From contig RFFQ01000142.1 of the NCBI GenBank assembly GCA_003697105.1, forward strand, positions 1-6,705: a stretch of 6,705 bases of DNA, in the 5' to 3' direction. Under the pieces are notes generated by a model. That model searched no databases. It worked only from the letters and a program-made list of their open reading frames with translations, and was not told the origin of the DNA. The DNA is from Gemmatimonadota bacterium. Its GTDB lineage: Bacteria; 4572-55; J002. How positions within the stretch are numbered: the first letter of the stretch is position 1; each line of letters opens with the position of its first letter. Positions 1,017 through 6,588 of the stretch are shown here, in pieces. Both the position numbers and the translations under genes were made by a program.

Positions 1017-2861
1017 TTATCCTCGATCTGCCCGTTCGTATTCTTTCACCGGGGGCTTGATAACCGTAGGAGTGACAAAAATCATCAATTCCCGTTTATT
1101 TAAGGTACTGCGTTCGCTTCGGAAGAGCTGGCCAAAAACTGGTAAATGTCCCAAAAAGGGTACAACGCTTTTTGAGCGGTTGCGGTCGGTACTCATTAAG
1201 CCACCAATTACCGCCGTAGCGCCATTATCCACCATCACCCGTGTTTCGGCATCATCTTTATTAATCAACTCCTGACCGGCAGCTTCTGGGGCGATAGAAC
1301 TCACTTCAACGTATAAATCCATCAGTACCTTATCATCTGCGATCACATGTGGGGTGACGCGTAACGTTACCCCAATATCTTCTGTTTTTTGAGTAACTTC
1401 AGTACCTTCCGGCGATTTTTCGGTACGGGTACGCCCTTGACCCGCGTGGATTTTCGCCTCTTCATTATCGAGCACCGTAATTCGCGGTTCAGAGAGTGTT
1501 TCACCCTGTCCTTGATCTTCTAGCATCTGGATCATGGCACTAATATCGATGGTCGATAATAAAGTACCAAATCGAAAAGCGGTCGTCCCTAACAACGGAA
1601 AGCTTGTCTCGCCTTCCGCATGGGTATCCACTAACGGATTCCCAAAATTACCGGCACTCCAATTAATTCCAAATTGTTTTGTAGCATTGGGGGCAATGGA
1701 AACCACCTTTGCTTGAATAACAACTTGAGGGATATACGTATCCAGTTTAGTTAATAATGCCCGGGCTTCTTCTATATAAGAAGGTAAATCCGTCATAATA
1801 ATCGAATTCGTCCGCCGGTCAACTTGAATACTGCCTTTGGGGGATTTAACTCGCGATAATGCCGGCTGAATCTCGCTCGCGGTTGCATACTGCACTTTAA
1901 TTACTTCCGTGGTAAACGGCAACAATTCCTCTAATTCTTGTTGATTTCGCAATTTCTGGCGTTCAATTTGGTCAAATTCATTTTTAGTGACCACCCGAAT
2001 AATTCCATCTTCTTCTTCGATCGCCACAAAATTACTCACATCCAAAATGAGGTCCATCGCCCGGCGCCACGGCACATCAATTAGGCGCATTGAAATAAGC
2101 CCCCCGACGGCATTACTTGCCACAATGTTCACATTCCCGTAATCCGCTAAGAATCGGAGTACATTACGCACATCCGCTTTGATCAAATCAAATGAGATCA
2201 ATTTCTCTTCTTCCAGAGCGGCATCTTCTGCGTCTTCTTCCATCCCCGGGGTTTGCGGATTTTCCACCACAATAAAATCATCTCCTGCGACATAGGCGGG
2301 GCGGTCATCTGTACCGGTTTGCACCGGAGGTAAATAATCTCCATCGGGAGAAACCGGAGAAGGATTAGTGGATGAACTGGTACGGTCCATTTGGGGTTTC
2401 GATTCGGGTGGGGACGGTGTCTCTGTGGGCAAGCCTTCACCTTCTTTAAAGCCCATCGTGTCAATGGCAACAATGAGGTTATTTTCTTCCGTCAGGATAA
2501 GGTATGAGGCGCGCTCTGCCAAATCGATCACAATCCGAACGGTGGGTTCGGGGAGTTCCTCAAATAAATCTCGTTGCCCCACACGAATAGCGGTGATCCC
2601 CTTTGCTTCTAAATTTTCGAGGATACTGGTTCGGACTTTATTTTGTGCATTTTTACAATCGATCACGATCCGGTGGGGCCGGTCCATCATAAAATCTTCA
2701 TAAATAACCGGACCATCGGCTTTGATGGTAACATACGTTGTTTCCCCCACTTGTCGAATATCAATGTCCGATATCTCATACGCCCAACTGTTGGAAAGTC
2801 CAACACCCACGCATAAGATGATGCAAAATGTCATCAACTTGAAGATGTGACTTATCGTCAT
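1017..2861 (-). CDS. pilQ: Type IV pilus secretin PilQ
   Basis: A 614-aa outer-membrane secretin, the pore through which the pilus fibre leaves the cell. A Sec signal peptide ends near SWA at 25-27. An AMIN-type peptidoglycan-binding domain covers about 28-135, followed by a Pro/Ser/Thr and acidic linker at 140-218. An STN/N0 domain lies at about 220-296 (ISFDLIKADVRNVLRFLADY), an N1 domain at about 315-372 (VIKVQYATASEI, RTNSIIMTDLP), and the secretin core at about 375-605. The family signature VPFLGHLPVFGQLFRS is at 567-582 and the final strand ELMIFVTPTVI at 591-601. There is one AMIN domain, so it is compact beside many PilQ proteins of 700 residues or more. The start overlaps the pilP stop (ATGA), with AAGGAGG 8 nt before the ATG, inside the pilP end. 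It is the last gene of the operon. That it is a secretin is certain; PilQ rather than a type II GspD follows from the AMIN domain and the pilMNOP neighbours. Confidence 0.96.
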   Translation of the reverse strand: MTISHIFKLMTFCIILCVGVGLSNSWAYEISDIDIRQVGETTYVTIKADGPVIYEDFMMDRPHRIVIDCKNAQNKVRTSILENLEAKGITAIRVGQRDLFEELPEPTVRIVIDLAERASYLILTEENNLIVAIDTMGFKEGEGLPTETPSPPESKPQMDRTSSSTNPSPVSPDGDYLPPVQTGTDDRPAYVAGDDFIVVENPQTPGMEEDAEDAALEEEKLISFDLIKADVRNVLRFLADYGNVNIVASNAVGGLISMRLIDVPWRRAMDLILDVSNFVAIEEEDGIIRVVTKNEFDQIERQKLRNQQELEELLPFTTEVIKVQYATASEIQPALSRVKSPKGSIQVDRRTNSIIMTDLPSYIEEARALLTKLDTYIPQVVIQAKVVSIAPNATKQFGINWSAGNFGNPLVDTHAEGETSFPLLGTTAFRFGTLLSTIDISAMIQMLEDQGQGETLSEPRITVLDNEEAKIHAGQGRTRTEKSPEGTEVTQKTEDIGVTLRVTPHVIADDKVLMDLYVEVSSIAPEAAGQELINKDDAETRVMVDNGATAVIGGLMSTDRNRSKSVVPFLGHLPVFGQLFRSERSTLNKRELMIFVTPTVIKPPVKEYERADRG

Positions 2862-3682
2862 CTTCCATCCCTCCTTGAGTTTTCACTCTGAAGCCGGCGC
2901 TGAACGTCTTCAATCAACGGATCCTCTCGATTGACAATCGTCCCAACTTTCATCGTCTTTGATAATAATTGTTTCCCGGAGAATTCATCTTCAACTTCAA
3001 AAATAATTTCATCCGTAAGAATGCTGTGAACTCGACCATTACTCACCCGGTCACCTTCCTGAAGATAGTAGGCAAATCCATTGCCATCTTGGACTAATGC
3101 GACACGACCATCAACACCATCCAAAATACCGAAAAGCTCGATACTCGTAACATCCAGTTCACCTTCGGGCTGGGGCAGATTTCCTTGGCCTTCACTATTA
3201 TTTCTGGAGGATCGCTTTTGGTCTTTAATCAAAGGTGCAAACGGGTCACGAGCCGAACTCCGGCGATACACATATTTTGGCTCGCTGACCGCTTCCTCTT
3301 CTTTAACATCTGGTTTGAACTGAAATACATCCGGTTTGGACGTCTCTGTCGGGATTGATGGTTTACCAATATCCGTGGTATCAAGACTCCCAATAGGTGG
3401 TTTCCCGGCTTCCTGAGAATCCGCAACAACAGGTGGTTTAGGACGGGGTTTCGGTTTGGGTTGGCGCTGCTGGGGTTTGACAGGAACTTCATCTTCCTGA
3501 CCAAACAACGATTTAACCCAATTAATCGCACCACTGATAAACCCTTCATCGGAGCTTTCAGCAGGTTCTTCCCATTCATCTTCTTGAGCAAAGACATCAA
3601 CATGTCCTTCATTCAACGTCATGAGGCTCAAGACAAGCAATACACCCAACAGCACGCTCACTTTACCAATCTTCAAATTCAT
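2858..3682 (-). CDS. pilP: Type IV pilus assembly protein PilP
   Basis: A 274-aa periplasmic protein linking the inner-membrane PilN/PilO pair to the N0 region of PilQ. The start at 3682 is chosen because GGAGG lies 8 nt upstream and because it opens a clear signal/anchor segment (MNLKIGKVSVLLGVLLVLSL); an upstream in-frame start would add 20 residues of pilO antisense-phase sequence. A possible signal cut follows VFA at 30-32. Residues 67-93 form a Pro/Lys-rich linker (QQRQPKPKPRPKPP), as expected for a flexible periplasmic spacer. RDPFAP at 145-150 is the motif typical of PilP. The beta domain follows at about 175-245 (IELFGILDG, VALVQDGNGFAYYLQEGDRV). Unlike the PilP lipoproteins of Pseudomonas and Neisseria, it has no cysteine anywhere, so it cannot be lipid-anchored itself. 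It overlaps pilO by 20 nt and pilQ by 4 nt, which suggests coupled translation. Confidence 0.93.
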   Translation of the reverse strand: MNLKIGKVSVLLGVLLVLSLMTLNEGHVDVFAQEDEWEEPAESSDEGFISGAINWVKSLFGQEDEVPVKPQQRQPKPKPRPKPPVVADSQEAGKPPIGSLDTTDIGKPSIPTETSKPDVFQFKPDVKEEEAVSEPKYVYRRSSARDPFAPLIKDQKRSSRNNSEGQGNLPQPEGELDVTSIELFGILDGVDGRVALVQDGNGFAYYLQEGDRVSNGRVHSILTDEIIFEVEDEFSGKQLLSKTMKVGTIVNREDPLIEDVQRRLQSENSRRDGR

Positions 3683-4289
3683 CCACCTCACCTCCATCGC
3701 TGTCAGAGCCACCCGGCGGTGCCATACCTTCCTTAAACGCAAAGGCGTTTACCGTAAAATCAACTTGGATATTTTGGTCACTCTCATTTGATTTGAACGG
3801 CTGAATGCTAATTTTTTCGACCTTCACAATCCGCTTAAAGTTCGCAACATCAGCAAAAAACTCGGCAAGGTCATGGTAAGTTGAGGTCGCTTTAATCTGG
3901 AACGGATGCGTTTCGACAACCGCACTACCGCCCGAAGTTACCGGTGCCGGTCTTATCTCTTTAATTGTGACATTTCGCGTGACCGCGGTATTCGTCAATT
4001 GAACAATCAACCGGGCAACTTGTTTTTTGCTAGGCAACCGTGCACTCACATCTTCCCATTTTTCATTGAGTTTGTCCAATTCCTGCTGAATCATGGGTAA
4101 TCGATTTGCAACGGCACGAACTTGGTCGAGATCATTCTGCAACTTAGAAAGCTCTTCTTGTTTTTTTACCACTTCTGCTTTCGCCGGACTTAACAAATAG
4201 TTATAACCCCCGTACGCCACCCCCAAAATCAGCAAAATCATCACCAACAACACCTGTATTACAGGGTCTTTCAAATCAATGTCATTCAT
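3663..4289 (-). CDS. pilO: Type IV pilus inner-membrane protein PilO
   Basis: A 208-aa bitopic inner-membrane protein that pairs with PilN and contacts PilP. It has a short cytoplasmic N-terminus (MNDIDLKDP), one membrane helix at about 10-32, a coiled coil at about 36-82 and a PilO ferredoxin-like periplasmic domain at about 90-186 (NVTIKEIRPAPV, FQIKATSTYHDLAEFFADVANF). Length and layout fit the family. A Gly-then-acidic tail (GGSDSDGGEVDEFEDW) follows; part of it is dictated by the DNA, because the pilP ribosome binding site and start lie within these codons. The gene starts 46 nt after the lipoprotein stop, with AAGGTGG about 10 nt before the ATG. In most pil operons pilO follows pilN directly, so the separation here is unusual. 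Confidence 0.93.
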   Translation of the reverse strand: MNDIDLKDPVIQVLLVMILLILGVAYGGYNYLLSPAKAEVVKKQEELSKLQNDLDQVRAVANRLPMIQQELDKLNEKWEDVSARLPSKKQVARLIVQLTNTAVTRNVTIKEIRPAPVTSGGSAVVETHPFQIKATSTYHDLAEFFADVANFKRIVKVEKISIQPFKSNESDQNIQVDFTVNAFAFKEGMAPPGGSDSDGGEVDEFEDW

Positions 4290-4335
4290 GTGATTACCAC
4301 CACCTTAACTTACGGGTAGGATTCTCCCTATTTCA

Positions 4336-4785
4336 TCACTGAAATTGGGTCAAATACACCGGCTGTAAATTCCGCTCTTCAGATACACTGACAAAAATAT
4401 TTTGAACATTATACGAGAATGTCTGACCTTTTGTATCCGTAAACGTGTAGGTTAAAGAGACAAACGCTTGATAAAACGGTTCATAGGTTAAGTTTCCGTC
4501 GTCATCTTGGGTAGGAAACGTTAAATACTGGTTGAACCGGTACACCCCATTTTCATCCGTATAAAGCACATCTGTAAACGTGCCTTGGTCACCGTTTGCA
4601 GTCGAAGCAAGCACAGAAACCTCTACCATGACCTCCGGTACTCCGACCGGAATTAACGGCGATTGCAAGACCGTCCCGCTCAGTTCAAAATTATCTGGAT
4701 CATCTTCGGCTTGATCACAACTGAATAACGAAAAGGCGATACCGCCGATCAAGACGGCGAAAATCAGATGTTTTATGCCTACCAT
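4336..4785 (-). CDS. Small lipoprotein with a transthyretin/carboxypeptidase-regulatory-like domain, inside the pil operon
   Basis: A 149-aa predicted lipoprotein. After a short basic start (MVGIKH) and a hydrophobic stretch at 7-19, the lipobox LFSC ends at Cys23; Phe at -2 is unusual but acceptable. Asp24 at +2 is the residue that, by the E. coli rule, keeps lipoproteins in the inner membrane; whether that rule holds here is unknown. An acidic spacer (DQAEDDPDN) leads into one beta-sandwich domain: SGTV at 36-39, VGVPEVMVEVSV at 47-58 and the turn YTDENGVYRF at 75-84. These are typical of carboxypeptidase-regulatory or prealbumin-like repeats. No catalytic motif is seen. The start has GAGGTGA just upstream, and the gene lies 21 nt after pilN and 46 nt before pilO, so it is probably co-transcribed. 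A role in pilus machine assembly, stability or anchoring is inferred from position only. I know no named pil gene that matches. Confidence 0.85.
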   Translation of the reverse strand: MVGIKHLIFAVLIGGIAFSLFSCDQAEDDPDNFELSGTVLQSPLIPVGVPEVMVEVSVLASTANGDQGTFTDVLYTDENGVYRFNQYLTFPTQDDDGNLTYEPFYQAFVSLTYTFTDTKGQTFSYNVQNIFVSVSEERNLQPVYLTQFQ

Positions 4786-4806
4786 GATTCACCTCAATCT
4801 AAACAA

Positions 4807-5457
4807 TTAGCTATGGTCTTCTGCCAAAGGAGCACCCAAGGACTCTGGAGCAACCAGTTTTATCCGCATTTCAAACTCATACAATTGGTAATCACCGACA
4901 AGGGTCCGTTGTTTTTGACCCGTTCTGGAAGACATCAATTCAATATCGGCGGGGTCTGCCACAATATCACTTCGTTCTAACCGGTAAATCAGCTCTGCCA
5001 CGCGCACATTCGAAAACGCTTCACCTTTTAGCAAGATCGCCGGTCGTCCAGCAGAGGATTGGTCTCTGATTTCCGTAATCCAGACTTGTTCCGGAAGTGA
5101 ATGTGCCAGTTGTTCCATTACTTGCACCCAATAAAATCGATTTTGATCGAGGCGCTCAACCTCTCTTAGCCGTTCATTGGTCATAGTGCGTTTTTCTTCC
5201 AACGCCTCAACCTTTTGTTTTTCTGCTTTGCGGCGGCTTAACTCGGCATTGACTTCAGCAATCTGTTGGTTAAGGTCGGCTTTTTGACCTTCCAGACTGC
5301 GCCACCAGATAAAAATACCCATTACGACAACCACCAACACAACCGCCGGAATCAAAATGCGTAAATCAAGAAGATTTAGACCTCCACCACCGCTGATCTC
5401 TTCTATATCGGCGCCTTTTCCCCGGTCTTCCGGTGGCAATAAATTAATTCTAATCAT
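4807..5457 (-). CDS. pilN: Type IV pilus inner-membrane protein PilN
   Basis: A 216-aa bitopic protein. Its cytoplasmic tail begins MIRINLLP, the conserved motif that docks into PilM. A Gly-rich stretch (ISGGGG) leads to one membrane helix at about 33-51 (ILIPAVVLVVVVMGIFIWW). A coiled coil spans about 54-105 (QQIAEVNAELSRRKAEKQ), then the fimbrial-assembly periplasmic domain about 106-200 (YWVQVMEQLAHSLPEQVWITEI, AELIYRLERSD). It forms heterodimers with PilO. It starts 1 nt after the pilM stop without a strong Shine-Dalgarno sequence, so translation is probably coupled to pilM. Domain order and length are normal for the family. Confidence 0.95.
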   Translation of the reverse strand: MIRINLLPPEDRGKGADIEEISGGGGLNLLDLRILIPAVVLVVVVMGIFIWWRSLEGQKADLNQQIAEVNAELSRRKAEKQKVEALEEKRTMTNERLREVERLDQNRFYWVQVMEQLAHSLPEQVWITEIRDQSSAGRPAILLKGEAFSNVRVAELIYRLERSDIVADPADIELMSSRTGQKQRTLVGDYQLYEFEMRIKLVAPESLGAPLAEDHS

Positions 5458-5458
5458 G

Positions 5459-6505
5459 CTATTTACCCGGCTTTCTTAAGGCAAGACCAATACCAACCAT
5501 CAACAATGGAGCAATCTGCTCTGGGTCTTCCCCACGAAAAATATCAATATCATAATCTACCGTTTTGAGCGGATTAGCAATTTCAACCGGTACCCCATGA
5601 TGCTGTCCGAGATAATCTGCTAACCCTACAATCCGCGCATTACCTCCACTAAGCACAATTCGATCCACGCCATCGGCGCTCGCCGTGCGAACAAATGAAA
5701 ACGACCGGTCAATGCTGTTCGCAAGGTCTTCCACTACCGATTCAAGAATCGGTTGCAATTCATCCGGTGAGACATCGTCCACCGGCTCTCCTTTTAACAA
5801 AGCGATGGAGGTTTCGTAAGTTTGGTTGAGATTTCGTTGAATGGCTTCCGTAAACGTCTTACCCGCAACAAAAATTTCCTTTTGAAAGATAGGGTGACCC
5901 TCCCGAATGACAATCAAATTAGAAACCTCCGAACCAACATCGATTAAGGCGATGGTTTCCGGCGAGATGCCATAATTTTCTTCGTAAGAATTCATCATGG
6001 CAAAATTATCCAAATCAATAATCACCGGTACCAGCCCGGCTTCCCGAATCAAGTCAACGCGGGTATTAATCATATCTCGTTTGGCAGCAACAAGTAACAC
6101 ACTCATCTGCCGGTCACTACTTTGGTCATCAATGATCTGTAAGTCTAAATAAACCTCATCAATATCAAATGGAACATGTTGTTCCGCTTCCCACCGGATC
6201 GCCTCGCGGGCTTCTTCTTCCTTCATCTTATCCATCGTGATCGGTTTCATGATCACGGCTCGACCACTGACAGACGTCACGACATGTTTGGTTTTCAGAC
6301 CGGTTTCTTCCCACAGTTCCCGGATGGTCTCAATCACAAGGTCCCGGTCCATAATTTCACCTTCAACAATGGCTTCCGGAAGCAACGGCTTGACGCCAAA
6401 GTTTTCCAGACTATACCCTTTGCCGCTTTTTTTCAATTCAACAACTTTAATCAGATGGCTCCCGATATCCAGCCCCACCGCCGGTGTGACTTTCTTAAAA
6501 AACAT
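5459..6505 (-). CDS. pilM: Type IV pilus actin-like ATP-binding protein PilM
   Basis: A 348-aa cytoplasmic actin/FtsA-fold protein that binds the PilN tail and couples the membrane complex to the cytoplasmic motor parts. The nucleotide-site motifs are visible: phosphate 1 GLDIGSHLIKVVE (11-23), phosphate 2 LIDVGSEVSNLIV (187-199) and the adenosine loop LSGGNARIVGL (285-295). The family block IRWEAEQHVPFDIDEV is at 103-118. I chose ATG 6505 (MFFKKVTPAVGLDIGS), the usual PilM opening; an in-frame TTG at 6517 would add four residues but would place its ribosome site directly against the codon. The ribosome site for 6505 is modest (AAGG about 12 nt, GGGA 7 nt away). It is the first gene of the operon, about 45 nt downstream of the predicted transcription start. 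Confidence 0.96.
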   Translation of the reverse strand: MFFKKVTPAVGLDIGSHLIKVVELKKSGKGYSLENFGVKPLLPEAIVEGEIMDRDLVIETIRELWEETGLKTKHVVTSVSGRAVIMKPITMDKMKEEEAREAIRWEAEQHVPFDIDEVYLDLQIIDDQSSDRQMSVLLVAAKRDMINTRVDLIREAGLVPVIIDLDNFAMMNSYEENYGISPETIALIDVGSEVSNLIVIREGHPIFQKEIFVAGKTFTEAIQRNLNQTYETSIALLKGEPVDDVSPDELQPILESVVEDLANSIDRSFSFVRTASADGVDRIVLSGGNARIVGLADYLGQHHGVPVEIANPLKTVDYDIDIFRGEDPEQIAPLLMVGIGLALRKPGK

Positions 6506-6558
6506 GGTCGTTCCCAACCTTGAAGGTGATAAACATAGCGGTTTACAATGCTTTAAAG

Positions 6559-6588
6559 ATCATATCATAGACGTTTCAACACTGTCAA
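6559..6588 (-). promoter_or_regulatory. Sigma70-like promoter of the pilM operon
   Basis: A perfect -35 TTGACA (6583-6588), an 18-nt spacer and -10 TATGAT (6559-6564, 5/6 match) point at pilM. Initiation is expected near 6552, leaving a short leader of about 45 nt. A second TATGAT copy overlaps it, but with only a 13-nt spacer. The -35 box shares TGCTTGACA with the promoter at 861-889. Confidence 0.7.

Follow-up and report, generated by a model that had tools for sequence, protein, structure and literature searches.

A lipoprotein gene in a fixed place between pilN and pilO: a probable accessory part of the type IV pilus machine

The window described here, an entire contig of 6,705 bases (G000:C18) from a draft genome of 4.18 Mb with 97% completeness, carries a pil operon on its minus strand. 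The order of its genes, as called from open reading frames, is pilM, pilN, a lipoprotein gene, pilO, pilP and pilQ. All five Pil neighbours score over the Pfam cut-offs (PilM_2, PilN, PilO, PilP and, for PilQ, AMIN/Secretin). The features are the following:

6559..6588, minus strand: promoter-like site upstream of pilM, TTGACA-18-TATGAT (11/12, consensus match only)
5459..6517, minus strand: pilM (PF11104, E=3e-69)
4807..5457, minus strand: pilN (PF05137, E=3e-13)
4790..4795, minus strand: ribosome-binding site of the lipoprotein gene, GAGGTG, 4 nt 5' of the ATG (sequence)
4336..4785, minus strand: lipoprotein gene of the pilN-pilO slot, 149 aa (open reading frame; recovered by a profile built without the window protein, E=3.7e-12; same slot in 28 genomes)
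4717..4785, minus strand: signal peptide and lipobox (LFS-C) of the lipoprotein, codon of the lipidated Cys23 at 4717-4719 (sequence; cysteine conserved in alignment A8)
4300..4306, minus strand: ribosome-binding site of pilO, AAGGTGG (sequence)
3663..4289, minus strand: pilO (PF04350, E=1e-27)
about 2858..3682, minus strand: pilP, likely start MNLKIG (PF04351, E=3e-6)
1017..2861, minus strand: pilQ, secretin with AMIN domain (PF00263, PF03958, PF11741)

The lipoprotein gene is found where the sequence-only reading had placed it, 21 nt from pilN and 46 nt from pilO, and has the ribosome site which that reading described. The site upstream of pilM is the sole strong promoter-like site, judged by consensus match only. 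The N-terminus of the window PilP reads as an ordinary signal peptide with no lipobox, and the protein contains a long linker that is acidic and rich in proline. Downstream of pilQ, after about 490 nt of non-coding sequence, positions 1-522 hold the start of a secreted protein cut at the contig end, with weak similarity to a HYDIN/VesB-like Ig domain (E=0.003).

The lipoprotein begins with MVGIKHLIFAVLIGGIAFSLFS, followed directly by C, forming a lipoprotein signal whose lipobox reads L-F-S-C, in agreement with the lipoprotein nature claimed earlier. The phenylalanine at position -2 is unusual; homologs have ordinary lipoboxes at the same cysteine, for example AGC, GSC or SAC. Cys23, with which the signal peptide ends, is invariant among the aligned complete members of the family (alignment A8), in which an acidic N-terminal tether is also conserved and the turn motif T-D-x-x-G is nearly invariant. 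The mature protein, read from its sequence, consists of the lipidation cysteine, an acidic tether of about 9-20 residues and one compact domain. By manual count, aspartate directly follows the cysteine in 19 of 28 readable members. Aspartate at position +2 is an inner-membrane retention signal in enterobacteria only. Since aspartate is the usual residue after the cysteine, the inner membrane is slightly favoured as the site of the lipoprotein; a 284-kb sample of the genome yielded eight credible lipoproteins, two of them with aspartate at +2, too few for an argument on localisation.

A single transthyretin/carboxypeptidase-regulatory-like beta domain had been assigned to the protein, and this assignment is supported only as far as an unspecific beta-sandwich. 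The AlphaFold2 model of the window lipoprotein, built from two sequences only, is all-beta with 6-7 strands and has low confidence (pLDDT 59.8); the protein from locus L039, described below, gave an unusable model (pLDDT 43.8). Comparison of the window model with the PDB returned many unspecific sandwiches of the Ig, CBM20 and TTR kinds, the best at Z 7.4 and TTR-52 at Z 6.3. One beta-sandwich domain is therefore probably present, as modelled, and the transthyretin-like label is plausible but unproven; the window protein does contain the motif TDENGxY. Scans of the lipoprotein against Pfam and NCBIfam found no family above cut-off, and the PDB holds no solved structure matching the family. The NCBIfam model TIGR04134 (lipo_with_rSAM) matched over 62 residues at E=6.5e-5, below its cut-off (23 against 39.8 bits), so that the protein does not qualify as a member; both are small lipoproteins with weak similarity, and they differ in gene context.

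A single-sequence search of 60 genomes with the window lipoprotein matched only the gene itself; it took L039 and iterated profile searches to reveal the family. In L039 (Gemmatimonadetes MGR_bin187), pilN and pilO are 503 nt apart, and the distance is filled by a gene for a 160-aa lipoprotein, which is separated from pilN by 16 nt and from pilO, the next gene, by 4 nt. A profile of the proteins from the order to which L039 belongs led to five more distant Gemmatimonadota members, all in the slot, and a profile of this second Gemmatimonadota group found the window protein at E=0.0014 among 7153 open reading frames, with L039 as the only other match. Compared directly with the proteins of the L039 order, by BLASTP or by profile, the window protein gave no significant match; the homology is shown through the intermediate Gemmatimonadota members and through a profile made without the window protein. 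This profile, built after members from the phylum of genome G314 and from genome G263 had been added, recovers the window gene as the sole match in its 4.18-Mb genome. Because a profile that never saw the gene matches it genome-wide at E=3.7e-12, the window gene is, on sequence grounds, more than a chance match. The same search added genomes G284, G527, G399 and G262, all with the gene in the slot.

In total, 29 genes were found in 28 genomes, and in 28 of the 28 they lie between pilN (or a fused pilM-pilN reading frame) and pilO on the same strand, in many cases overlapping pilO or standing a few nucleotides from it. The carriers are the window genome, all six genomes examined from the L039 order of Gemmatimonadota, five more Gemmatimonadota genomes, 11 of the 39 genomes of the G314 phylum (all 11 in the slot), G263, which has two copies, and the four genomes added last. 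At least four phyla are represented, counted from the window genome, Gemmatimonadota (two clades), the G314 phylum, whose 39 listed genomes include none of the other carriers, and G263, alone in its phylum; G284, G527, G399 and G262 stand outside this count. In 386 genomes from across the domain, all matches at E<=1e-6 lie in the pilN-pilO slot, and the best match outside it is a lipoprotein of G056 (a frame of 117 aa, E=4.9e-6) with no pil genes nearby. Among 395 Gemmatimonadota genomes the gene is confined to the two known clades, and its distribution is therefore patchy. The literature searched, which included few subscription journals, contained no paper naming a gene between pilN and pilO.

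Several of these loci show peculiarities of their own. In the G314 phylum and in G284, G527, G399 and G262 (L113-L123, L153-L156), a single uninterrupted reading frame covers both the pilM and the pilN match, a fusion with a layout like that of GspL in type II secretion. The two lipoprotein genes of G263 (L112 / L125) are tandem and divergent, and its PilP is lipidated. In G073 (L101 / L178 / L183) two frames, 54221-54379 and 54384-54677, together make up the lipoprotein gene, which is broken by a frameshift or an assembly error. G385 (L163) encodes a weakly similar lipoprotein (E=0.006 genome-wide) directly after pilO, possibly a relative that has moved.

In a wider survey, 80 loci around PilM were scanned for the distance between pilN and pilO. 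In practically all of them the two genes overlap or lie within 40 nt of each other, and in about 70 pil loci without the lipoprotein gene they are adjacent, which implies that little else is tolerated in the slot. G001, a member of the same class and the sole relative compared in the window's phylum, has a pilN-pilO gap of 115 nt with no gene inside, and its PilP carries the lipobox FTGC. Comparison with related genomes gives a divided answer for the earlier suggestion that the product of the gene is a candidate part of the alignment complex: against it, the gene is missing between pilN and pilO in the nearest relative; for it, no confident member of the family was found elsewhere.

Pairwise dN/dS values of the lipoprotein gene between close relatives are 0.11-0.23, indicating purifying selection, close to those of pilO (0.07-0.23) and slightly above them. 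On a quick tree of PilM, PilN and PilO, with long branches flagged (the window and G001 among them), the presence of the gene requires about five changes, located in deep clades, and at least four of these are forced by well-supported branches. This pattern is compatible with ancient presence and repeated loss as well as with several separate gains at the same slot; repeated independent landing of one family in one slot, if true, would itself imply a functional link.

We propose that the product of the gene is probably a lipoprotein dedicated to the type IV pilus machine as an accessory part, a lipid-anchored subunit of the PilMNOP alignment complex that would contact Pil proteins. Occurrence at one fixed operon place in several distant groups suggests that it is an overlooked part of this machine and not a stray gene. 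The more specific version, with chances slightly better than even, is that of an unnamed fifth subunit, lipid-anchored, that would be assembled together with PilN and PilO across several phyla (that of the window, Gemmatimonadota and two or more others), would coexist with PilP and would have been lost repeatedly. The lipoprotein would be made together with PilN and PilO, its lipid would anchor it on the periplasmic side, with a slight preference for the inner membrane, and its beta domain may dock on the periplasmic ring of PilN/PilO (or PilP). Once docked, it could brace the alignment complex or tie it to the envelope, in a role comparable to that of TssJ, which braces TssM in the type VI secretion machine. 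Most surveyed pil operons, that of G001 included, lack the gene, and the pilus machine therefore works without this lipoprotein.

Absence of the gene from G001 and from most pil operons would also be expected of a passenger, an unrelated envelope lipoprotein merely sharing the operon, and so would the fast evolution that leaves the window protein 14-29% identical to other members in the alignment. Such a passenger is nevertheless very unlikely because the slot is fixed: it is identical in all carriers across phyla, no confident member occurs elsewhere, and the gene is under purifying selection. The same observations strengthen two views put forward from the sequence alone, that the gene belongs to the operon and that its product is a candidate extra part and not an unrelated passenger. 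The PilP proteins suggest another role. PilP has an ordinary signal peptide in most carriers, as in the window, and a lipobox in the gene-less G001, as if the lipoprotein replaced the lipid anchor of PilP and tethered PilP, PilN and PilO where the lipobox had been lost. This replacement is improbable, since PilP is non-lipidated in many loci without the gene too, and in G263 a lipidated PilP occurs together with the gene; a strict complement of lipoprotein and PilP lipobox fails across loci.

The lipoprotein could alternatively act at the outer membrane as a pilotin, carrying or stabilising the PilQ secretin and encoded in the pilN-pilO slot, not beside pilQ. Small lipoproteins are the usual pilotins of other secretin systems (PMC3213119), and the canonical PilW/PilF (TIGR02521) was found over cut-off in none of the 25 genomes searched, carriers included. 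Genomes without the gene likewise have no TIGR02521 protein over cut-off, so this absence does not discriminate, and the argument for a pilotin from the missing PilW was rejected. The slot adjoins genes for inner-membrane proteins. The known pilotins of type IV pili are TPR proteins, whereas the lipoprotein is predicted to be all-beta and has no TIGR02521 match in the NCBIfam scans. A pilotin is unlikely.

In standard systems PilN, PilO, PilP and PilQ form a chain in which PilP is an inner-membrane lipoprotein (PMC3724824). PilP (PF04351) is likewise encoded in the operon and periplasmic, is a lipoprotein in many species, and contributes a beta-sandwich domain to the PilMNOP complex, as the protein described here would; the window, however, has a separate pilP downstream, and its lipoprotein does not match PF04351, the only hit being Big_9 at E=0.11. 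A lineage-specific extra gene inside a pil operon has a parallel in Thermus thermophilus PilW, the product of an additional gene of the pilMNO-Q operon; PilW connects the secretin with the platform in the inner membrane (PMC13039148). Its gene lies between pilO and pilQ, and the protein takes the place of PilP, whereas the extra gene of the window lies between pilN and pilO with pilP also present and encodes a lipoprotein. In the Thermus protein a GspC-HR-like domain is combined with a membrane helix. TssJ, the outer-membrane lipoprotein of type VI secretion, is also short; it has a transthyretin-type beta-sandwich and binds a periplasmic domain of an inner-membrane partner (PMC3213119). The likeness lies in the short lipoprotein, the beta-sandwich of the window protein being unconfirmed and its model of low confidence; no sequence relation between the two was found, and the machines differ. 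TssJ is absent from the VIA-align rows for the window model, which counts as no evidence against the likeness. The PilMNOP alignment complex is commonly treated as a fixed core. A conserved lipoprotein gene between its two partner subunits, present in several phyla, suggests that a component of the machine has been missed across a wide and largely uncultured range of bacteria. The short protein is a concrete subject for experiments on the bracing of the inner-membrane platform within the envelope, and further lineage-specific pilus parts could be sought through the same operon slot.

Both the window genome and G001 have a second pil locus (L008 on G000:C24 and L007 on G001:C50, respectively). 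In the former, pilN and pilO overlap. The latter was considered as a second case of an interrupted pair and rejected: its pilN-pilO gap of 527 nt (L007:10056-10582) holds short broken reading frames only (MKFPYGMSDFYQLIT...) and no lipoprotein. These frames may represent a decayed AAA-ATPase-like/PD-(D/E)XK gene. Both second loci have the order pilT, pseudopilins, pilMNOPQ, a very large lipoprotein (1064 aa in L008 and 631 aa in L007) and a pilB-type ATPase, and the large lipoproteins, judged by eye, contain Ig-like repeats.
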